A model generated the notes under the pieces. It did not search any database. It saw nothing but the letters and a program-made list of their open reading frames with translations, and had not been told where the DNA came from. 64,000 nt of DNA from Acanthochlamys bracteata (lineage: Eukaryota; Streptophyta; Magnoliopsida; Pandanales; Velloziaceae), in contig CM034132.1 in assembly GCA_019914995.1 (NCBI GenBank), positions 8,426,662-8,490,661 on the forward strand, written 5' to 3'. This document shows positions 2,671-62,009 of this stretch, in pieces. The position numbers and the translations under genes were made by a program. Position 1 is the first letter of the stretch. Every line of letters starts with the position of its first letter.

Positions 2671-3756
2671 ATGGACAACAGTTGCATAGAAGACTCTTCA
2701 AGCGAATTCGACAAGCAGCAGCAAAACAGCAGTAAAGCAGCTGTTCAGCCTTTGCTTCTGCAACCGTTGCAGCGAATGGGAAGCGGCGCTAGTGATGTTC
2801 TAGATCCTGATAACACCGGCGAGGTTGAATCACGGAAGCTGCCTTCGTCCAAGTATAAAGGCGTTGTGCCACAGCCGAACGGACGTTGGGGCGCGCAGAT
2901 CTACGAGCGGCACCAACGCGTTTGGCTTGGAACATTCAACGATGAGATCGAAGCTGCTCGTGCTTACGACGCGGCTGCTCAGCGTTTCCGGGGCCGTGAT
3001 GCTGTGACCAACTTCGACCCGTTGTCTGAGTCTGACGATGACGGTGCTGCTGAGCTCGCTTTCCTTCGTTCGAGATCGAAAGCGGAGATCGTCGACATGC
3101 TTCGGAAGCATACTTACCACGAAGAGCTTCGTCAAAGCATGCGATCTGCTCTAGCTGCGCGCTTAGCTCGTGGGCGCAACTCAAGTCCCAGCTGTCTGGT
3201 TCTTGCCACGCCGAGGGAGCTTCTGTTTGAAAAAGCAGTGACGCCGAGCGACGTCGGGAAGCTGAACAGGTTGGTTATACCAAAGCAGCATGCGGAGAAA
3301 CACTTCCCGCTTCGTGCCGAGCAAGCGAGTTCGGCTACGAAAGGGATACTTCTAAGCTTCGAAGACGCCGGTGGTAAAGTGTGGAGGTTCCGGTACTCGT
3401 ACTGGAACAGTAGTCAGAGCTACGTGCTGACAAAAGGTTGGAGTAGGTTTGTGAAAGAGAAAGATTTGAAGCCCGGCGATACCGTGAGCTTTTATAGATC
3501 GACGGGAGCAGTAGAGAAGCAGCTGTACATCGAATGGCGGCGGCAAACAAGCGTTGTCGTCGGAACAGTGTCCTTCTGCAGCACCGCTGAAGCTAATGTT
3601 GAACAGGTTGTCAGACTTTTTGGTGTTAACATTCTCAAAGTACCATCTGATAGTTGGAGCAGTGGATCAAAGAGAAGTAGAGAGATTAATTTTGTACAAT
3701 CATCAGCAGCAGCAGATGCAATAGCAGTGAAGAAACAATGCTTGGTTGCTTTATAG
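2671..3756 (+). CDS. TEM1: RAV/TEMPRANILLO-type AP2-B3 transcription factor
   Basis: Intronless 361-residue protein. An AP2/ERF domain lies at about residues 61-116 ([19 protein letters not shown], with the WLGTF and RAYD core). A B3 domain lies at about 184-293 ([20 protein letters not shown], then [14 protein letters not shown]). The B3-type repression motif RLFGV is at 315-319, and a basic patch (KRSR) follows at about 334. This order and length are typical of the RAV subfamily, whose AP2 domain binds CAACA and whose B3 domain binds CACCTG. TEMPRANILLO members repress FT and gibberellin genes. The N terminus ([27 protein letters not shown]) and the C-terminal KKQ look closer to TEM1/TEM2 than to RAV1, but the exact orthology is inferred. 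The start is the first ATG after the TATA box. The gene is more GC-rich than its flanks, and no frame damage is seen. Confidence 0.95.
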
Positions 3757-6700
3757 TAATTTGTATAACTCCTAACATGTGCTTCTTGCTCTAGCTAGCT
3801 AGTTCTAGATGAAATTTTAACTTCAGAGTTTGTTCTTCTATATTTCATGCATATGTAGATTTTCCAAAAACGAAATGTACATTATATCTGCCAGAGACTG
3901 TAGACATGTTCTTTGAATTGGATATATAGAGCATATATTCTTATTGTGAGTTTCTCTTGATCAATAGAACGAATTAAACTTCAAATCTATTATTATTATT
4001 TGCTGTAGTTGATCTTGTTTCTTACTTGCAACATCCTGCTTTTATATTTCATGAGAAACTAGTCTGCAGCAGTTTCTTAATTGTTTCTTCAAATATTAAT
4101 GAATTCTTTCAGTTTCAGTATGTCTATGCGGAAAGGTAATGTATTATCATGTTTCTGAAAAACTGAAGATCTTTAAGATTCAGATTCACTAGTCAATCGT
4201 ATAAATGTTCATAACAGTATCTTTTGAATGTTCATTGCAGATTTAGGCAAATGTTTGAGTGACAACAAATGAAACAAAATAATTTGGTTGCTGCTGGTTT
4301 AAGCTAGCTGCAGGTTTTCAGCAAAACCGCTTAATAATTATTCCAGATTTTATTGAGCTAAAGAATCTTGACCAAATGGATAATAAAGACAATCCAAATT
4401 TATACACACAAATCTGCTCTAAACTCTTTTGCAGTGTCCTGCTTTTCATGATCATCATCAGAATTCTGTTCAAATGTTTTCAGCGTGTGCTTTTGCTTTT
4501 CCCAAAAGCAGCTATGTAATCTACGATTAATATATACCTAATACGATAAACATTGATATATAAAAATGCATGTGCGATAATGTTTGAATGCTTTCCGCAA
4601 TTTGAAGAAGAAGAAGAAGCAGAAAACACACATTCTTTAATTGTTTTGATTCAAAAGAAAAAGAATAATAAGAAAAAGTATATGATATGAAAAGTTTCTA
4701 ATTATTATAAGTGATCATATGGAGTATAGGTGTGTTATGTTAGGCATGCGTTTAAATTTATTTAGAGTCAAAAGAAAGAAGAGATAATGGCGTGGCAACT
4801 AGCTGTATAGCTTGACTTGTAAGGTTTTTGTTGCTAATATTTGCTATTGTTGCAAGGTCAGAAGTCCACCTTATATATGAATAATAATTTTTAAGTCTTA
4901 ACTTTTGTTATGATAATCGCATTTTGTTTTTTACCTTTCAAGTGGGCCCTACCTTTGCAGCCTAAGATATTGAGAGTGATTATTTGAAAAAAGTTTTTCG
5001 AAAAAAATATTTTAAAAATAAATATATTTTTTTATTTAAAAATAATAAATAAAAAAATTTTATAATATAAAACTTTTTTGTACTATTAAAATTTTTAAAA
5101 AATTTTTATAAAATATTCTAAAACTTTATTAAAAAACTTTATTTTAGAAGCTGTTTAACAAAGCTTTTTATTTCATTCACCATTTTATTTTTATCTTTTA
5201 ATTTTTAATAGACCTTTTATAATATTATAAAAGAAATTAAAATACAGATATATTATAAAGTATTTACACATAATATTTATTTTTTGAATAAACATATATT
5301 TATTTTTTGAAAAATTTTAAAATTTTTGTTATTATTTTTTAATTACTTTCAAATAACTCTACAGTCCGTTTCTAATTGACATTTATTCGGCTTTTTCTCG
5401 GTTGGACAAAAAAATTTTATAAACTGAAATATAAATTATTCTAAAAAATTACTTAAATATAAAAATAAATATTATGATAAGGTCGAAATAATTTTATGTT
5501 GGCAAATTTAAAGTTTGGGTTTTTGTCGTGGCTTGCCGACGATATTTGTTACCTGAAGCTGAAACCAATGTCGTTTACTTTGCACGAAGGACTCCAGTTA
5601 GACAAGCTAGCAGTGCTTGTCGTTCACATGGCGAATGTTTTTTACTTGAATTATCTTTAATAGAAAAAAAATTTAGTCAAATATTTTGATTTGTAAAAAT
5701 TTAGAAAAAAATCATAAAGTTTACATAACAACACAAACCTAATATCATTTTTTGTATGAAATATTATCTAACAATTTGTCCTTTTCAAAAGAAGAAGTCC
5801 CTCCTCTTCTGGTTAAAAAACTAGATTGCTTACTCGAAAATGCATTAATTACCTTAAACACCAATTTCCTTTTTTGGTAACTTTTACGAAAGTTTAATGT
5901 AAAGGAATACGTCTTTTACTAAAAATAATAAATCAAGTGCAACTAGATTATATCTAACAATTTCTAGATCTTGTTTATGTTAAACAATTCATTAAATAAT
6001 GGCTACTAGAACGTTGATGTTTGACAATGTGAAATATTAGCTTCATCTTTTAACATAAGCAAGATCTTGAACTACTAAAAAATTGTTTACTTTTTTGCAT
6101 TATTATTATGCGTTAAACATTGACTATAGTGATCAAGTCATTGTCTTCGTCTTTATTTTAATGCATATTTTTATACTCTAATCTAACTTATTAAACCAAT
6201 CCCATGTTTACGTCGTGACTCTTTATGAATTCGATCGAGAAATACTTGTTTTATATATTCTAATCACATTGTTTAGTACAAAATGACGCGGTTTTCTTCC
6301 TTCAACGTTTACTGCTAAATTTATTCAAAGGTCAGTAATGTAAAATCTTTTCGTTAGTTTAAAGTGAAATGCCCGACTTAGGTGTGCTTAGAAGTGTATT
6401 TAAAATAAAATTTTTTTAAAACAAATAATATTTTTATTTAAAAATAATTAAATTATTTTTTATTAATTTAAAAAATAATAAAAATATTTTATTATATAAA
6501 ATATTTTATATAATTTTAATAATTTTTAAAAATATTATAAAAATATATTAAGATATATGAACTAAAAGATTAAAAATATATATTTAAAATAAAGCTTGTT
6601 AATTTTGTAGTGATATGTTTTGTGCCAGCTAAGGATTATTAATTAATCTAATAATTAACTATAATTATGTCAGCAATCATTTTAGTATTATAGCTGTAAA

Positions 6701-10187: not shown

Positions 10188-13100
10188 ATGGCGGTTTCGC
10201 ATAAATCGACCGAAGAAGAGAAGCCGCAAACGAGCGAGACCAGCTCGCCGAGTAAAGCCGGTGCTAAGGAAGGAGCTGATCTCAAGCGAAAGAAAGATCC
10301 CGGTGTTCGTGTTGTTGGCGGACGTATATTTGATTCTGAGAATGGCAAAACTTGCCACCAGGTAACTAACCGAGTCTACATGAGTTAGAATTTTTATTAA
10401 TGAAGAATTAAATCCTTTTTTTTCCCAGAACTTATTGTTATATTATTATTTTGGTTCTGTGATGCCAAGAAGTTGGTTATGGAGGTATTGTTTTAGTTGA
10501 AAGTAGGGTTTTGAGAAGATTGTCTTTTCTTGTAATATGTATCGGTTTCTTTTTTTTGGGAACTATAGTACTCATGTCCGGAATCATGGATGATCTAGGG
10601 TTTAGAAAGAAATTTCTTTTGATTCAAGTTTAACCAGTGACTGAAGGCGTTATATGAGTTACTGAAATTTAAACTAAATTTATACAATTGTATGATCTCA
10701 GTGCCGACAAAAGACTAGGGACTTTACGGCTCAGTGTAAGAAGCTGAAGAAAGACAAGCTTTGTACTATAAAGTATTGCCACAAGTGCCTGCTCAACAGG
10801 TGTTCGGCTCGTTGTCTCTTAGAAGCTTTTTTCCTGAATCTTTTAATATTCTTCATTTCTGACGACCTTGATGGTTTTGATGACTAAGATATGGAGAAAA
10901 GGCAGAGGAAGCTGAAGCTGAAGAGATCTGGGAATGCCCAAAATGTCGTGGAGTCTGCAATTGCAGCTTTTGCATGTACCTTTATTTAATAAAACTTAAA
11001 TAGACTTCATTCTGGTTGTAGGTTTAAATACAAGTATACTTTTAGAGTTTGCAAGCAATATTGTATTACATCCTGCTGTTTTTGTTGGACAATTCCATAG
11101 GAAAAAGAAAGGGCTTCGTCCTACAGGGATCCTTGTCCATGCAGCCAAGGCGACTGGCTATGATTCAGTGCATGACTTGCTATCTCAAAACGGAGATGAA
11201 TTCTATAAATCCTTGAGAGGACAGGTTGATAGTGAAATCTTGCTGATCTTCTGCTGCTACCTTCCCATTTCCGGAACTAGTGAAAGCTATATATGTATAT
11301 ATCTTGCTAAATCATGAATAATTGCTTTTGAAGGAGACTGATGAAATTCAGAAGGGTGTAGATTCTCAAGTAGCTGGTGAATGCATGAAGGGAGGGTGGC
11401 TGCCTGGAGTTTGTGATGCTGAAGTTTTTCCTGGTGCTGAGAAGAACACCCTAAAAGTGTTCAAGAGCAAGGTTAAAAAACCACAATTTACTCTTAATGA
11501 ACCTGACAAAGAAAATGTGGACATGGAGACTTTTGCTGTGGCTGGTGAGGGGAAGCCTCCACTTGATGTATACATCGGTGGTGCTCAAGAGCAACATATT
11601 TCCAAGAAGAGGAAATCTTCAGAAAGCCACAGTGAACCTAGGAATGATGATTTTGTTCTGCCTCAAGGAACTCCTATACTGGAGGTTGCTGGCGTTGAAT
11701 TTGGGATTCATGAAGTTGGAGCAGCATTTCAGTTCTTGGAATTCTGCAAGACTTTTGCTAAGGTACATCATTACATATTAATATAGTACATATTATTAGG
11801 AATAATATATCCATGTGTTTGTTGAGCTCTTGATCCAAAATCTTAAAGCTGTTAGGTGATCTTTGAAATATTTTGTTTATCTATGATTAAATTGTATAAG
11901 CAGTAGGTATGTGCCAATAGTTGCAAGTTTGATCTGATGTGAAATGTTTTACTTTCTGAAGTACTCGGATAAACATGAGTTTTCTGTGGTTAGTTACTAT
12001 AAGGAGTGTAGGAACGTAAAGATGGAGAGGCAGTGGAGGAATTGTACAACTAAGCAACTTGGTACTGAAGCAAGATTGCTTCTAACAAGGTAGATAATCA
12101 AAAAATCTACTTAGTACAAGATATTTAATTATTAATCTCTTCGGATCTAGCTAAAACAGTCATTAGATTCTTAAATAATATCAAGAATAGTAAAACAACA
12201 ACAATAAATGAAGACAATGTTTACATAGTTCAGCTTTAAAAGAAAAAACTACGTCCATAGAGAGGGAGAAGAAATTGTCACTATAAAATTATGAAGATTA
12301 CAAAAGATTGGAGCAAAAAAGAACAAATCTTGTAAAAGCTCCAATGAGAAGAAGATAGATTTTTTTGGAGAAAGAGAGGTGAAAAAATCAAGCTCATGAC
12401 AACCAAGAAACACTTCTTTAGAAGAAAAACCCTTGCAGAAAATGTAGAAATAGAAACAGACAAAAGGAGGGCCAAAATAAAAAGAAAAACTGTCAAAATT
12501 TGCCTTGGTAGATAAGGTTGTCGCTAACTTCTTTCGTAAGAGAAGTGGTAGTGCAGAGGTTGATAGTAGGTCTTTAATATCTCAAACTTGGTCGCCTAAG
12601 GTCGTTAAGACCTCAAAATTGGTCATATAAGGTCGAAATCCAAGGCAAAACATAACAAGAAAATTATCTTGGTTTTAGCTTTTGTTAGTATACCTTTCAT
12701 CATTTACATGAAATGATGAACTTTTAAACTATGTGCTTTGAGAAAGTTATTATGGATAGCTAAAATTTTGTAGCTATCCAAGTCAAATTAGTAGTTGCAT
12801 ATGTGTAAAACTAACACTCAAAACTCAACAGTAGCATAATATATTGGTTCAATAAGTGCTATCTTTATTAAAACTGGCAATATGAAAATAAGTATTTTAG
12901 GGATGTCTATAAGCTGCCGCAATCTTGCGCATGTGATAACTGATTGGGTTAGTCGATTAGCGTCTTTTAATATTGGTGGATGCAATAGAAACTTTTGAGA
13001 ACACTATCTATTTCCATTACCAATGAGCATTTAAAGTCTACGTGAAGATAATTATTATTTTTAAAATTTGTTGTTCTCTGAAAATGAATCTTCTCCAACT

Positions 13101-37965: not shown

Positions 37966-39551
37966 TTACCATCCAATAGCTTGAGGTATATTATATATTA
38001 GGTTTAACTTAATTTTTGAATCCAGTGGTCCGTTCGCTGTCAGCAATGTTTGGAATTATTTTAAAAAGAATTATTTTATAGAAAAAGTGTTTATAGATTT
38101 TTAGAAAATAAAATTATTATTTTAATAAAATATATATATATAAGTAAAATTGATATAATATTTTGAAAATTAAAATATAAATTTTTTTGTTGGAATAGTA
38201 CGGATTCGTTTTCATACCCAAGATAAACGGCACTTTCAAATATGTTGTATTTATAGAGTATTTAGTTGTATAAGATTATATATTGTACATTTTTATATGT
38301 ATAATACTTTTGTATCTAAACAACTAAACCATTTTTAAGTTTTAAAATAATTTTTTAATAAAATATTTTATTTTAAACAACGTTTAAAAAACCGCCACGG
38401 TTTTTATTGATGCCCTAACAGTCTTAAAAAGAAAAAAATTATTAATATCTATTAAGCACTTTTTTTGGCAAAGCTCATGGAGAACTTTTTACTCCATGAT
38501 TTATTTTATATTTATAAAAACTCTTTTAAATTATTTAAAAACTAATTTATTAATTTAAAAATATTAAAAAATTCTATATTATAAAAATATTATTATTTAC
38601 TTATTTTTATATTTTAAATAACATAAAACTTATTTTTAAAATAAAATAAAAAATATTTTCTATTTAAAAAAATATTTCATAAATACTTTTAAATATCTCC
38701 AAATGTTCGCGATTCATTCGGTTGCTTCACGCTTCTACAGCGTAGACGATAACATCAAACACAAAAATCAATAAAAATATAGAGAATCAACCATGATGTG
38801 TTAAGATTTAAGAGATAAAGCTATTAGTTAATTAGGCGATTACCGTGTCGCCCACTTTCATGCATGCATTTGATTAACTTATTATCTCGTTACATACAAA
38901 TCAGAAGATATTTGAGAGTATTTATTAAATATTTATTTTAATAAACCTTATTTATTTTTATTTTTACTTTAAAAATTAAAAAGTTATATATAAATAATTT
39001 TATAATGATAGGTCATTGTAATGTTTAACAAGTATTATATATATTTATTGAAAATAAGAAGTAAAAAAGTTTTTGATAAATGGTTATAAACACTATCAAA
39101 TAACATCTAAGTAGTAGTATATTTACTGTTAGAACTAGGGCGCACATTCAAATATAATAAATGACCAAAAAATTAAATCTCTCACATGAAAGCGAACAAG
39201 AACCCAACAGTCGAATCACGGTATGAATGTACTTTGCTTCTTTATTTCTTATGTATGTAATACTTTCTAGCTCTATAGCTTCCGCAATATATTGGTCCAT
39301 TATAGAGTATATATATTTAGACTATAATTCTACTGTTGACTTAGTATTATGTTCTCGTCTTACTTAGTCCCTATTTAGACACTTACTCTGAAGTTATGAA
39401 GATTATTATGAAAATTTATAGATATGAAGTCATAATAACTTGAACTAAAAAATATATAGATATGATTTTTATGCTCTTTAGATTTTTGTCTTCCTTATGT
39501 AATTAATCCATAAGACAAAAAAAACACGCTTTTCATAAGCTTCTACGTAAA
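37966..39551. other. AT-rich spacer with MITE remnants and a partial LTR
   Basis: No gene is seen. MITE-like AT segments occur at about 38040-38400, 38460-38710 and 38900-39110. From about 39210 to 39400 the sequence (CTTTCTAGCTCTATAGCTTC, then CTTAGTCCCTATTTAGACA) resembles the distal part of the LTRs at 39552-41512, so it is probably a truncated LTR. Confidence 0.45.
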
Positions 39552-41512
39552 TGTTATGTTTTGTCATAGATTTCGACCTTATACTATCAAATTTGGAGTT
39601 TTAACGACCGATTTTTCTATTTTGGCCCTCCATTTTGTTTTTTTTTTTTACCCTTTTTGTGTGCCTTTTTTTTAAGAGAAATGTAGCTGGTTATTTTTAT
39701 CTTGGTTATTTCAATCCCTATCTATTTTAGAAAGAGGGTGAGAGAGTTTCTATTATGTATAGAGATTTATCTATAATTATTTCAATGCTTCAAAGCTTTG
39801 TATCTTTCACCTTAATGATGAATCTTTATTTTTCCTCTCATGTGGATATAAGTTTCTCTTGAAGTCAAACCACATAAATATTCATCTTTATTTGTTCTAT
39901 GTTGTGTTTATTGATCTTGATATTATTTCACACTATTTGTGATTGATTTTTGTAAATCTTGGTGATTGAGTGCTAAGTTTTTTCTTACTTATAGCAGATC
40001 TGAGATATCTGCTTTACATGAAGCTACTTTGATAGCTATACTCATGTATTTAGGGAGTGTTTGGCATTCCATTTCACTTAATTCTAAAATTCTAATAAAT
40101 CCTTTACAATGTTCTACATAATTTATTTAAAAAATTAGAAAATATAAAAAAATTTTACGTTGTAATATATTTTTTATTTTTAATATATAAAAATAGAACT
40201 CATTTTTTGAAATAAGATAAAAGTATCATTTATTTTAGAAAAACTCAATTTCATAAACACACTATCGCTTCCGCAACGTAAAGGTCCTTTATGGAGCAGG
40301 CATATTTATATCGTGATTTGGACGTTGGCTTAGTACTTATAACGTAATTCGGGTTCTCACTTCGATTTGATATTAAAAATTTATTTCTTTGGGCTTGTAT
40401 TCTACTTAGGTGTCGGTCCTCGTTCTAACAAGCTAGTATCAGAGCTTTAAGATTTTATTGGTTGCAAAATTAGACACCAAGAAGTTCGATACTGATATTA
40501 ACTTCAACCTATAGCGTGCTCCAGTGATCACCGTTTTGATACAACAAATGAAGAAAAGACTTGTTTCATGCGATATTCAAGTCAATGTGGAGATTTGTTA
40601 TGTTGTGCCTTAGATTTCGACCTTAGCAGACCAAGTTTGAAGTTTTAATGACCTTAGACGACTAACTTTGGAGTCTGGACGACCTGTTATTGACCTATGT
40701 ATAACCATTTTTATTTCAAAAATGGTTATCGATCAGTTATCGACTTGGTATCTATCAAAGACAAAAATTGACAGTTTTTCTACTTTGGCTCTCCTTTTAT
40801 CTGTTTTTTGTTTCTAACATTTATATGTAGATTTTTCTTGAGAATTGACAGAAATTAGCATGTTGCTGATAGCATTTATCTTAATTGTTTCAATCCTTAT
40901 CTTTTTGAGAGTGTGATTAAGAGAGTTTATATTATATTTGGAGCTTTATTTAGAATTATTTCATGCTTCAAATCTTTGTATCTCTCACCTTAACGATGAA
41001 TTTTTAATTTTCCTCTCCCGTAGATATAGGTTTCTATTGAATCAAAACCACGTAAATATTCGTTTTCATTTGTTCTATATTGTATTTATGATCTTGATGT
41101 TATTTCAAACTACTTATGACTGATATTTTTGTAGATCTTGGTAATGCTTTCTTATTTATAGTAGATTTGAATTATCTACTTCATATGAAGCTACTTTGCT
41201 TCTATTTTTTTCTCATATATTTCATACTCTCTAGCTCTATTGCTTCTACAACATATTAATACATTATGAACAGACATATTTATACCTTGATTCGGCCGTG
41301 GGATTAGTATGTGTTGTAATTCGATTGCTCTCATTGCTCACTCCTATTTAGGCATTTTCTCTAATGTTTTTATAAAGCAAAACACGTCCATACCATAATT
41401 CAACCGTTTGCTCAGGCACATATACCATAATTCAAATTCAGCTTCACTTGCATATTAGAAATTTATTTTTTTGAGCCTTTAATATGGTTGGGTGTCAGCT
41501 CTAGTTCTAACA
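39552..41512 (+). mobile_element. Miniature copia-type LTR element: LTR A, 165-bp interior, LTR B
   Basis: LTR A (39552-40430) and LTR B (40596-41512) both begin TGTTATGTT and end TTCTAACA, giving TGTTA/TAACA ends. Between them lies a 165-bp interior only. It starts with a primer-binding site (CTAGTATCAGAGC, close to the initiator-Met tRNA type TGGTATCAGAGC), continues with a copia-like gag start (KLDTKKFDTDINFNL, then a stop), and ends with a polypurine-like tract (AATGTGGAGATT) directly before LTR B. LTR A lacks about 130 bp near its 5' end and carries a MITE at about 40051-40262. No protease, integrase or reverse transcriptase is present. Confidence 0.75.
40051..40262. mobile_element. AT-rich MITE-like insertion in LTR A
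   Basis: Absent from the corresponding place in LTRs B and C. It begins GGGAGTGTTTGGCATTCC and ends AATTTCATAAACACACTA, imperfect inverted repeats, with the A/T core at about 40137-40175 (AGAAAATATAAAAAAATTTT then ACG). It must be younger than LTR A. Confidence 0.55.
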
Positions 41513-42063
41513 AACTGGCATAGGAGCTAGAGCTTTAAAGTTTTATTGGTCAGTATGTTTGACATAAAAAAATTTGTCGTCAATATTAACCGGGTCACTC
41601 TGTTGAAAACCAAAATACACAGCCCTCGTATATAGAAATAAAGTATACAAATAACTTTGCTAGTAATAATAAAATAATGCAAAGGTCAGATAGCATTCTT
41701 GATATGAAATTTTAAAGCTACAGACAGACCGCAATGAAACAACAAAATAACAACATCCTGCCAAATCTACTAACAGAAAGGAAGGGGTACATCAAATCCA
41801 AACCAAACAATGATGACAAACTTCAATGAACCCAAGCTTATAATGATAATTATATTGACGGTCACCAACACAATTCTAAAACTTTATGGTAAATCATCAG
41901 AAAACTAACAATCCAGTAAAGGTCTATCTATAAATACTAGTCATCTTCTTGCAAACTAAGTATGACCCAAATGTAAATAGACCAGATGCCAATGAGTTTA
42001 ACATGCTATTCACGACTTTAGCAAAAAACGACCACAAGTAGCAAAAATCATGAATCAAATTAA
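41513..42063. repeat. Second interior fragment and duplicated flank
   Basis: Directly after LTR B the sequence again looks like an element interior (CTGGCATAGGAGC in the primer-site position, then GTTTTATTGGTCA). It continues with a block, through about 41740, that is repeated at 43093-43330 (shared phrases CACTCTGTTGAAAACCAA and GCAAAGGTCAGATAGCATTC). From 41741 to 42063 the sequence is unique within the window, and I see no gene in it. Confidence 0.6.
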
Positions 42064-43092
42064 ATCATGATTCGGACGTTGGCTTAATATTTGTAACGTA
42101 ATTTGGATTCTCGCTTCGATTTAATATCAGAGATTTATTTCTTTGAGCCTGTATTATACTTGATCATCGGCCCTCGTTCTAACAAACTGGTATCAGAGAT
42201 TCAAGATATTATTGGTTACAAAATTAGACATTAAGAAGTTCGACACTGATATTAACTTCAACATTTGGCGTACTCTAATGATCACCGTTTTGACACAACA
42301 AATGAAGAAAAGACTTGTTTCAAGCGAACTTCAAATCAATGTGGAGATTTGTTATGTTGTGCCTTAGGTTTCGACCTTAGCAGATCAAGTTTGGGGTCTT
42401 AACGACCTTAGACGACCAACTTTGAAGTCTGCACGACATATTATCGACATCTCCGCAACCACTTCTATTTCAATCGGCCTGGTATTTACCAAAGACAGAA
42501 ATTGATAGTTTTCTGTTTTGACTCTCTCTTTGCTGTTTTTTTTGTACCCTTTCTACGTAAATTTTTCTTGGGAGTGACAGAAATTGGCAATGTAGCTGGT
42601 TGCTTTTATTTTGATTGTTTCAATCCTTATCTCTTTGAGAGAGTGATTAAGAGAGTTTATATTATATTTGGAGATTTATCAAGAATTATTTGATGCTTCA
42701 AATCTTTATATTTCTCACCTTAATGATGAAATTAAATCCGTAGATGTAGGTTTCTCTTGAATCAGAACCACGTAAATATTCATTTTCATTTGTTTTATGT
42801 TGTATTTATTGATCTCGATGTTATTTCAAACTACTTATGACTAATATTTGTAAATCTTGGTAATGCTTTCTTATTTATAGTAGATTTGAATTATCTACTT
42901 CATATAGAGCTACTGTGCATTTTTTCTGTCATATATTTCATGCTCTCTAGCTTTATTGCTTCCGCTTGATACATTATGAACAGGTGATTGTGATTCGACC
43001 GTGGGATTAGTATGTGTCGTAATTCGAATTCTCCCGTTGCTCACTCCTAATTGAGCATTTTCTCTAATTGGGCATCGGCTCTAGTTCTAACA
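42064..43092 (+). mobile_element. Second miniature copia-type LTR unit (5' LTR end, 165-bp interior, LTR C)
   Basis: The 5' LTR is reduced to its last 121 bp (42064-42184, ending TTCTAACA). The primer-binding site TGGTATCAGAG is at 42188-42198. The interior (42185-42349) is again exactly 165 bp and encodes an unbroken gag-like start (KLDIKKFDTDINFNIWRT). The polypurine-like AATGTGGAGATT leads into LTR C at 42350-43092, which begins TGTTATGTTG and ends TTCTAACA. The interior boundaries are the same as in the 39.5 kb unit. Confidence 0.75.
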
Positions 43093-44269
43093 AACTGACA
43101 TAAAAGCTAGAGCTTTAAAATTTTATTGGTCACAAAGTTCAACATAAAAAAATTTGTCGTCAATCTTACCCAGGTCACTCTGTTGAAAACCAATATACAC
43201 AGCTCTTGTGTATAGAAAGAAAGTATACAAATAACTATGATAGCTAGTAATAAAAAAAATTGATGCAAAGGTCAGATAGCATTCTTGATATGAGATATTA
43301 AAGCTACAGATAGACAGACCGCAATGAAACCAGCTGCATACTTGCATAGCTAATGAACAGCTTTTGATTGACAACTGCATCAAATATATCAAACTATATA
43401 GTTTCAAGAAACAGGTACAAAAAGCACAGAGAAGGAACACAGTCAAAAGTTAGGGAATAAGACAAAGATTCTAATGGGAAACAAATTACAACACAGTTTA
43501 CACTACTATAAATGAATTGTCAATAAAGAAATTGCAAAACCAGCAAATAAACCACTCTAATGCCTCCAAGTATTCATAGTTCAACCAGATAAATTAAATT
43601 CCTTTGATCTGCTGGGCAGGTTAATTCAAATAGAACAACTGCATAATTACAGAGATAAAGGAACAGTGTGAACATTGCTGATACAATGTAATCAGCGCTA
43701 TTTCCCAAACTGAATTTCAATACACAAATATCAATTAAACATCTGAATCAAAAGCTCTTATGTACCTAGATACCTTAGCCAGATTAATTGACATCCTCAA
43801 ACTACTGTCAGGCTAACTTAATGCAGCTTTACATAGGTATAGAACACACAATAAACAAAACAATTATCCAGAATACGATGTGTGTTGCAATAAGATTAGA
43901 TACACAAATGCACCAAACATCAACATGAATATAACAGATAATCCTTCTAGCATATGAAGAAGCAACCAACATACATGCAAAACAACTTGCATACAAAACT
44001 TCGACCTGATTATAATCACCTGCCTACTGGAACAACTAAATAATTACAAAGACAACCAAACGAGGGATAGATGTAGATATTCTTTCCAGCAATATAAACC
44101 TCGAGAAACAGAATCCTCTTACAAAATTAGAACCAGTAACAAGCATGTAACTGTCAATATGTAGCACTTGTTCTTTTAAACCAGAAACCCCTACAGATAA
44201 CTGCTGAGACACAAACATACAACCAATACCAAAAACAAAAACAACCACCACCAAACATCGCAGATAGAT
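43093..44269. other. Duplicated flank and region downstream of RPL26
   Basis: 43093-43330 duplicates 41513-41740, as described there. 43330-44269 is unique AT-rich DNA, part of which should be the RPL26 3' UTR (the gene is on the minus strand). A 107-codon minus frame at 43123-43446 lies across the repeat and has no family resemblance. No other gene is seen. Confidence 0.5.
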
Positions 44270-60300: not shown

Positions 60301-62009
60301 CCGAGGGCGTTTAGCATTCCATTTCAAAAAATTAATTTTTTAATATTTCAATTCACATTTTTAAATATATCTATTATAAGTATTTAAAAATTTTATTTAA
60401 AATTTTAAAAAATATAAAAAATTTTACGTATTAAAAATATTTTTTTATTTATTTTTATTATTTTATTAAATAAAATATAGATCTTATTTTTTAAAAAAAT
60501 AAAAATAAAAATGTTATATTTTAAAAACAATCTCGTACATAATTTCTTTGATACCGCAAAAGACGCATCTCCAAAAGGATGATCGAGCTACAAACTATCA
60601 AGTATAAAAGTTCCTACCCGGATCAATTATAGGGTTAATTCTGTCTGGTTCCTTGCAATCAATGATGTTCCAAGATTTTTCTTGTCTTCTATATTGCATC
60701 AAAATTGCTTGAACTTGCTTTGTAATAATTTTTTATAACTCTACTTTCAACCGCAAAAGAAAAAATTTTAAATAAAAGATTTTCAAATAATTGTTTGAGT
60801 GCGTGTTTGTTTGTGCGTTTGAAGAGCGGCTTATCAACATTTTTTTATTTTATATTTTTTAATATATATTTTATAAATATATAAAAAATTTATTTAAAAA
60901 TTTAGAAAATATAAAAAAATTTTACGGAGTGAAATTTTTTTATTGCATATTTTTATTATTTTTTTAAAAGTAAAAAAATAGAGCTCATTTTTAAAAAAAA
61001 TAAAAATATTTTCTATTTTAAAAAAGCTTAATTTCATAAGCACTTTCAATCGCTCTCTAAATATGTAAGCTCTTATTAATCAATCTCGATAGGCTTCTAA
61101 TGAAATCTTTCATGCTTTCTACTCGCTCTCATTTGATAGGTACGTTTGCGTTTGAAAAAATAATTTTTTTAAAATAAAAAATAAATTTTATTTTTTTATT
61201 TCAAACAAATAATAAAAATAAATACCAAAAATATAATTAAATAAATTTTTTTAAATTTTTAAATAAATTTTCTAATATTTATAAAATATATATTAAAAAT
61301 ATAAATTAAAAAATAATTTTTTTAGAAAGCTTTGCCAAACCGCCCTATATCCTCAAGTTTTTGTTCTACATTTTGTCAAATACAATATTAACTTATTCAG
61401 AACTTAAATAACAATATATATGTTATAAAAAAGTTTGACTTTTTTTGTGATAAGAAATATTTTAAATATAATTTAGAATTTACGATATTTAGGCATGTTT
61501 ATTTATACCTTAAACTCAACATTTTTAACCAAAAAAAGTTTACTTTAACTCAATTTCGGTAAATAGGTGTTTAATTTGCTTTAAAGTGAATAAAGAAAAT
61601 GAGTTTATAAATATGAGTTAGTGAAGTTTGAGTGAGTTTAGTTTTATATTTATTTTCTATGAAAAGTGAGTTTAAAATATTATTTTTATTTTTAAAATAT
61701 GATTGTTGGAAGCAAAATTTTGATTAAAACATTAAGTTTAATTTTTATATTTATTTTTTAAAAATAAGGTAAAAGAAAATTCTTGACCAAAAATTGAGTT
61801 TAAATTTTCAAGAAATATGCTTTAAAAAAGTAAACTCAAATATTAAATTTAGTTTTAAACTTTGTTTCAATTATCACATTATAAGCTTACAAAATTTATT
61901 TTTAAGCTTACTTTTAATAGATAAATATAAAATTAAGTCACTTTAGCGTATCACTTTTTTAAGTAAATTATTCTTCAAAATTCGCTTGTTAAATTCTAAT
62001 TTCAACATA
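60301..62009. repeat. Cluster of AT-rich MITE-like elements
   Basis: At least three adjoining copies occur: about 60305-60540 (GGGCGTTTAGCATTCCATTT at the left), about 60800-61065 (GTGCGTTTGAAGAGCGGCTT left; ATTTCATAAGCACTTTCAAT right) and about 61140-61345 (GTACGTTTGCGTTTGAAAAA left; GCTTTGCCAAACCGCCC right). The first two carry the A/T palindromic core. A further AT-rich segment with GAGTTTA-type repeats at about 61490-61950 resembles the interior of the 18649 element. No gene is seen. Confidence 0.55.

Follow-up and report, generated by a model that had tools for sequence, protein, structure and literature searches.

A probable non-autonomous Ty1-copia derivative with a 165-bp interior between long LTRs in the genome of Acanthochlamys bracteata

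The stretch of DNA considered here, referred to as the window, comprises 64,000 nt of Acanthochlamys bracteata on contig CM034132.1 (contig C7 in the analysis), and coordinates are positions in the window unless another contig is named. The genome that was searched amounts to 195.5 Mb in 557 contigs. Neighbouring genes in the window include those of an AP2/B3 factor (2671-3756) and of ribosomal protein L26 (44270-44824, minus strand). The locus itself is built from three long repeats, termed LTR1, LTR2 and LTR3, each of which starts with TGTTATG and ends with TTCTAACA, together with two copies of a very short interior. The features are as follows.

39552..40430, plus strand: LTR1, the 5' LTR of the insertion, TGTTATG...TTCTAACA, interrupted by a foreign repeat
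40054..40261 (ends approximate), no strand assigned: AT-rich MITE-like repeat of ~208 bp inside LTR1
40306..41740 (ends approximate), plus strand: local duplication unit, first copy, with direct repeats D1-D5, D7 and D10 in order
40431..40595, plus strand: reduced interior, first copy, 165 bp, two in-frame stops
40434..40445, plus strand: primer binding site, first copy, initiator tRNA-Met type, 11/12 of TGGTATCAGAGC
40534..40560, plus strand: deletion-junction stretch, first copy, from alignment with the pol-bearing elements on C9 and C19 and from a pattern search
40596..41512, plus strand: LTR2, 917 bp
41513..~41597, plus strand: second, truncated interior start after LTR2, from alignment, matching into the C15 and C4 interiors
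42060..43320 (ends approximate), plus strand: local duplication unit, second copy, with direct repeats D1-D5, D7 and D10 in order
42060..42184, plus strand: last 125 bp of an LTR, a copy of the LTR1 tail
42185..42349, plus strand: reduced interior, second copy, 165 bp, 55 codons open
42188..42199, plus strand: primer binding site, second copy, 11/12 of TGGTATCAGAGC
42288..42314, plus strand: deletion-junction stretch, second copy, from the pattern search (C7:8468949-8468975)
42350..43092, plus strand: LTR3, 743 bp, a copy of LTR2 with deletions
43093..43320, plus strand: copy of the truncated interior start and flank that follow LTR2

The original prediction, made from the letters of the window, had described an interior of exactly 165 bp in both places, each with an initiator-Met-type primer site, the start of a gag-like reading frame and a polypurine-like end, and all of these elements are borne out. 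Both primer sites agree at 11 of 12 positions with TGGTATCAGAGC, which is taken here to complement the 3' end of the initiator tRNA-Met with CCA added, and a genome query with what was assumed to be the initiator tRNA-Met sequence gave eight matches, six of them identical. The two interiors are 87.9% identical and both end in AATGTGGAGATT, directly adjoining the LTR. As had been noted, the gag-like frame is unbroken in the second copy and broken in the first, and in the second it reads INFNIWRT; the 55 residues of the second, the one interior scanned, gave no match to Pfam at E 0.1. The description of both copies as LTR-interior-LTR units holds for the first, whereas the second has a 5' LTR reduced to its last 125 bp and is an incomplete element. 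The LTR lengths of 740-920 bp stand, with a correction to the make-up of LTR1. Its homology to LTR2, LTR3 and the related LTRs on C3 and C4 sets in at TGTTATG, position 39552, but homology to the C4 and C15 LTRs is lost at ~40053 and returns at 40262, marking the insert, and LTR1 is also without ~120 bp that LTR2 has. Within the insert 40078-40260 matches 38500-38686 and several other places in the window. These belong to an AT-rich dispersed repeat of ~190-210 bp, MITE-like by its size, which recurs many times in the window and also next to related loci (positions include 38500-38686, 40078-40260, 9298-9102, 56472-56286 and 60844-61049).

How, then, did two such similar units come to lie side by side? 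The direct repeats D1, D2, D3, D4, D5, D7 and D10 occur in the same order in 40306-~41740 and 42060-~43320, at a spacing that falls from 1754 to ~1580 because of indels, and the segment that they delimit contains the LTR1 tail, the interior, LTR2, the truncated start of a second interior and sequence beyond it. LTR2 and LTR3 cluster together with a support of 100/100 (100/99 in a tree without any join), and the K2P distance between them is 0.165 compared with 0.27-0.29 between LTR1 and LTR2, where 0.27 is the value for the unjoined LTR1 piece. It follows from the order of the repeats, the LTR2/LTR3 clade and the lower K2P that the second unit is a local duplicate, such that the two window copies represent one insertion duplicated on the spot. 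The window copies are thus rejected as proof of mobility on their own, as the repeat extends past LTR2 into further sequence, and the case calls for caution in counting tandem retrotransposon copies, given that look-alike neighbours are here the product of local duplication. The truncated interior at 41513..~41597 is possibly the remnant of a tandem LTR-interior-LTR-interior arrangement.

The evidence for mobility has to come from other chromosomes. The prediction had been staked beforehand on the presence of the same gag-to-polypurine junction elsewhere in the genome, and the junction is found on C3, C4 and C15. Queries consisting of the interior plus LTR flanks, in four versions taken from C7, C4, C3 and C15, all return the identical five junction places, two on C7 and one on each of the other three contigs. 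When the genome was searched for a 27-base junction pattern, allowing up to 3 mismatches, 12 sites matched, namely the five copies at 0-1 mismatches and seven more at 2-3, against nine matches at up to 3 mismatches for the reversed control. The five interiors are 165, 165, 166, 164 and 165 bp long and have pairwise identities of 0.74-0.88. With the C7 interior alone as query 3/5 copies are recovered, so diverged copies may be missed and five is a lower bound; the genome search scores its best candidates, and the count is one of at least five copies at at least four loci, the known ones being C3, C4, C7 and C15.

The C15 copy (L011 3301-5165) measures 1865 bp, with LTRs of 855 and 845 bp, and is the sole miniature copy with both ends, where the flanks TCTAC/TCTAT are alike at 4/5 bases. 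In the C4 copy the 5' LTR is ~864 bp and the 3' LTR is cut close to its end, and in the C3 copy the 3' LTR is cut and the 5' LTR is 120 bp (L010, oriented 4241-4360), which may reflect either an LTR that was short from the outset or a deletion that came afterwards. A perfect TSD pair is present in none of the miniature copies; those on C3 and C4 are without a 3' LTR end and C7 is without a clean one. When the loci were compared (8.5 kb each of C3, C4 and C15, 8.0 kb of C9 and 12 kb of the window), the sequence in common outside the elements consisted only of dispersed repeats of up to ~390 bp. Homology between loci starts at the LTR start, the elements align at ~70-80%, and on C15, the one dispersed copy with an intact 3' LTR end, homology stops at the LTR end.

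The origin of the interior is apparent from two pol-bearing relatives. In the first, on C9 (L018), the LTRs measure 717 and 714 bp and enclose 3046 bp of interior; the second, on C19 (L046, C19:3317350-3322950), retains both LTRs, 722 and 742 bp long, around a 3935-bp interior and is flanked by a perfect 5-bp TSD, GTAAT/GTAAT. Pol is decayed in both, and they differ from the miniatures in their interiors of 3.0 and 3.9 kb and in their LTRs (714-742 bp), which form a separate clade. RVT_2 was matched by three of seven pieces of the C19 element (best E 7e-17, with one below the curated cut-off at E 0.023) and by one of the two pieces of the C9 element scanned (E 4.6e-20), while the gag-start pieces of the two elements gave no match in the domain scan. 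The miniature and the pol-bearing elements have the same LTR start, tRNA-iMet primer site and gag start. Fundamental to the argument is that C9 and C19 hold both halves of the miniature interior, but set apart: the miniature interior corresponds to their gag start as far as about TTGACACAACAAA and, for the remainder, to the final ~50 bp ahead of their 3' LTR. The junction stretch at 40534..40560 is hence the gag start fused to the ~50 bp upstream of the 3' LTR. The motif TGACAC occurs near the join in both halves in C9 and in C19, and behind the primer site the five miniature interiors share a few additional bases that the two relatives lack.

Four other loci with matches confined to the 3' half and the start of the LTR, C1:6957, C17:3174, C9:6504 and C1:7650, were considered as extra miniature copies and rejected, with a gag start in the 500 bp upstream in 0/4. 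The last three match the pol 3' end far above shuffled sequences, and for C1:6957 there is a slight excess (60 and 77, with shuffles reaching at most 53 and 46). Since the two halves lie apart in C9 and C19 and the other 3'-half loci run into pol, the miniature is an internal-deletion derivative, and the homology of both interior halves to RVT_2-bearing copia elements shows a Ty1-copia origin.

The relationships between the LTRs were analysed in a tree of the seven miniature LTRs, a lone LTR on C19 and LTRs of the pol-bearing type (C9, C19 and a 5' end on C8); C3, with LTRs too short for the purpose, was left out. The seven miniature LTRs and the lone C19 LTR form a 100/100 clade, separate from the pol-bearing-type LTRs, which form a 100/100 clade of their own. 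The C4 pair clusters at 98/98, with the C15 pair and the C7 trio grouping only weakly. Trees in which all 5' LTRs or all 3' LTRs are held together are rejected, also without any join, and the same is true where just the 5' LTRs of C4 and C15, or their 3' LTRs, are held together, again also without the join. A duplication-type grouping of C15 with C7, without the joined LTR1, is not rejected (p-AU 0.238 and 0.0545), and the probable independence of C15 from C7 thus rests on the non-matching flanks and not on the tree. Taken together, the common junction, the non-matching flanks and the tree for C4 versus C15 support the view that the deleted form itself moved and was probably copied to at least four places, on C3, C4, C7 and C15, a mobility that is modest at four known loci. 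The original prediction had offered two possibilities, a mobile TRIM-like family or a single deletion that was duplicated afterwards. Each is borne out at its own level, the first for the dispersed junction and the second for the local duplicate in the window. Substitution rates between 6.5e-9 and 1.3e-8 per site and year turn the within-element LTR K2P, from 0.20 (C4) to 0.30 (C15), into a rough age of about 8-23 million years. The miniatures are an old family of decayed, low-copy relics.

The history that best accommodates these observations, with a probability of roughly 0.87, is that of an ancient non-autonomous Ty1-copia derivative that underwent one deletion, was mobilised in trans to at least four loci and was later duplicated on C7. 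In a pol-bearing ancestor a single deletion fused the first ~115 bp of the interior, consisting of the tRNA-iMet primer site and gag codons that end near VLTQQ, to about the last 50 bp, thereby taking out all of pol and leaving ~165 bp between LTRs of ~850 bp. The comparison with the two pol-bearing relatives establishes this single-deletion step. The deleted form would then have been copied to C3, C4, C7 and C15. As the miniature encodes nothing, reverse transcriptase and integrase would have to be provided by a copia relative that recognised the LTR ends, primer site and polypurine tract and perhaps used what is left of the gag start for packaging, so that mobilisation was presumably in trans by copia relatives. 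On C7 LTR2 is followed by a partial second interior, and the segment from the end of LTR1 to past LTR2 was later duplicated alongside itself, giving rise to the second unit in the window.

What would the same five junctions look like if the deleted form had never moved? One deleted copia element could have been spread by segmental or whole-genome duplication, without retrotransposition, and this is what happened to the two window copies; the ages are also old and alike (within-element K2P 0.20-0.30), and the tree leaves the grouping of C15 with C7 unrejected. As an account of the whole family it is nevertheless improbable, for the C3, C4, C7 and C15 flanks share short dispersed repeats only while the elements align at ~70-80%, the homology sets in at the LTR start, and the groupings of C4 and C15 that place 5' with 5' and 3' with 3' are rejected. 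Less probable still is that several full-length copia elements independently suffered deletions with the same two end points, guided by a short repeat for example. With TGACAC near the junction in both halves of the C9 and C19 elements recurrent recombination is conceivable, but the miniature LTRs are a single 100/100 clade apart from the pol-bearing type, and the additional bases that follow the primer site in the five interiors are missing from C9 and C19. That the 165-bp interiors reflect chance, or an assembly artefact from a duplicated assembly stretch, deserves next to no credence: beyond the tandem arrangement nothing speaks for it, the window copies differ at ~12% of interior positions plus indels, and the junction is also present at three further loci.

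If, as preferred here, the deleted form was mobilised in trans, which element was the helper? The original prediction had envisaged a full-length copia element with the same LTR, of which the copia part stands, in the form of the pol-bearing relatives, and the LTR part does not, the identity between miniature and pol-bearing-type LTRs being only about 0.57-0.66. No LTR-matched helper was found among the four relatives considered (the pol-bearing C9 and C19 elements and the 5' ends on C8 and C1), 0/4 of which have a miniature-type LTR. On C8 (L047) there is a 5' LTR and interior start of the pol-bearing type only, with no pol matched there. C1:6966 was tested because it is the best 5'-interior match outside the junction copies (C4 query), and it was rejected as a same-LTR helper as its LTR falls with the pol-bearing type by local matches. 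The lone C19 LTR (L017) shows no TSD in the flanking bases examined. Short islands common to both LTR clades align better than the remainder; these are the first ~50-60 bp of the LTR, the primer site and gag start, and the last ~50 bp of the interior. A tentative and rather doubtful suggestion is that the lineage was mobilised by copia helpers with LTRs at ~60% identity, in which event the shared islands would represent the smallest set of cis signals that trans-mobilisation requires, among them a packaging signal located in the gag start.

How the family relates to known classes depends upon which property is considered. LARDs have long non-coding interiors of several kb, which the 164-166 bp found here are not. 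TRIMs are described in the available text of PMC4717578 (Gao et al. 2016) as under 1000 bp, a size that applies to 225/289 subfamilies there, the other 64/289 not being below it but still retained, with LTRs under 250 bp in 197/289, tandem arrays in 129 subfamilies and larger relatives for 11/289, including a copia parent from which OsajRetroS10 derives via internal deletion. The definition that can be drawn from the accessible parts of PMC4717578 and PMC4528315 is a total under 1000 bp (or under 540 bp), LTRs of 100-250 bp, a non-coding interior (100-300 bp) containing PBS and PPT, and a TSD of 4-6 bp. The interior, at 164-166 bp in 5/5 copies, and the dispersal in deleted form (C3, C4, two on C7, C15) agree with a TRIM. 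The C15 copy at 1865 bp exceeds the total length, and the LTRs of C15 (855/845 bp), the C4 5' LTR (~864 bp) and LTR2 (917 bp) exceed the LTR range, with C3 having 120 bp at its 5' end and a cut 3' LTR. Because it fails on size and LTR length the family is not filed as a classic TRIM, yet by origin, interior size and mobility it works like one.

The closest parallels in the accessible text of PMC4717578 and PMC4528315 are OsajRetroS10/OsajLTRA10 of rice (PMC4717578) and Wukong/Sanzang of maize (PMC4528315), which likewise have a short non-coding interior with PBS and PPT, arose from Ty1-copia elements by internal deletion and are dispersed in the deleted form; tandem arrangements are reported there for TRIMs including Wukong. 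They differ in size, the LTRs being 115 and 230 bp and the whole elements 408 and 532 bp long, against LTRs of ~850 bp, a 1865-bp copy and few, old copies here, and in PMC4717578 the LTR identity to larger relatives is given as 79-98% as opposed to about 57-66%. The original prediction had considered long LTRs around so small an interior to be unusual, a claim that loses force, as the combination is already in print in the available part of PMC2533021: Mtr77 of Medicago truncatula is likewise non-autonomous and multicopy, with 2191-bp LTRs flanking a degenerate and very short interior, given as about 200 bp, for a total of 4668 bp. Mtr77 was filed as a LARD by its length, and the likeness drawn here is one of description. 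PMC5659011 was discarded as a short-interior precedent, its TRIM families, in the text available, having interiors of 1.6-2.0 kb and short LTRs. In tandem TRIMs and LTR retrotransposons (PMC4717578 and PMC11899658, in their accessible parts) successive units have common LTRs, as in LTR1-interior-LTR2-partial interior; here only ~85 bp of a second interior follows LTR2, where a tandem TRIM, with three LTRs and two interiors, would share an LTR between two complete interiors, and the second full window interior, unlike in such arrays, stems from local duplication that includes sequence outside the element. The family is a clear and roughly datable case of a TRIM-like element that arose from copia by one internal deletion, and both of its halves can still be identified in pol-bearing relatives. 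It also demonstrates that a very short interior can be mobile between long LTRs, and therefore TRIM size cut-offs miss such families.

An RNA-gene origin of the LTR is unsupported: a cmscan of 39000-43500, covering the window copy, found no 5S rRNA or other small RNA of the Cassandra type in the LTR, its sole match being RyhB, with 22.7 bits where the gathering score is 55 (E 0.64). Elsewhere in the window, rearranged fragments of miniature-family LTRs lie upstream of LTR1 at 39127-39207 (minus strand) and 39222-39347 (plus strand), one of them inverted, and 12024-12657 (minus strand) is an LTR relic of the pol-bearing copia subfamily, 75% identical to the LTR of the C19 element over 470 bp.
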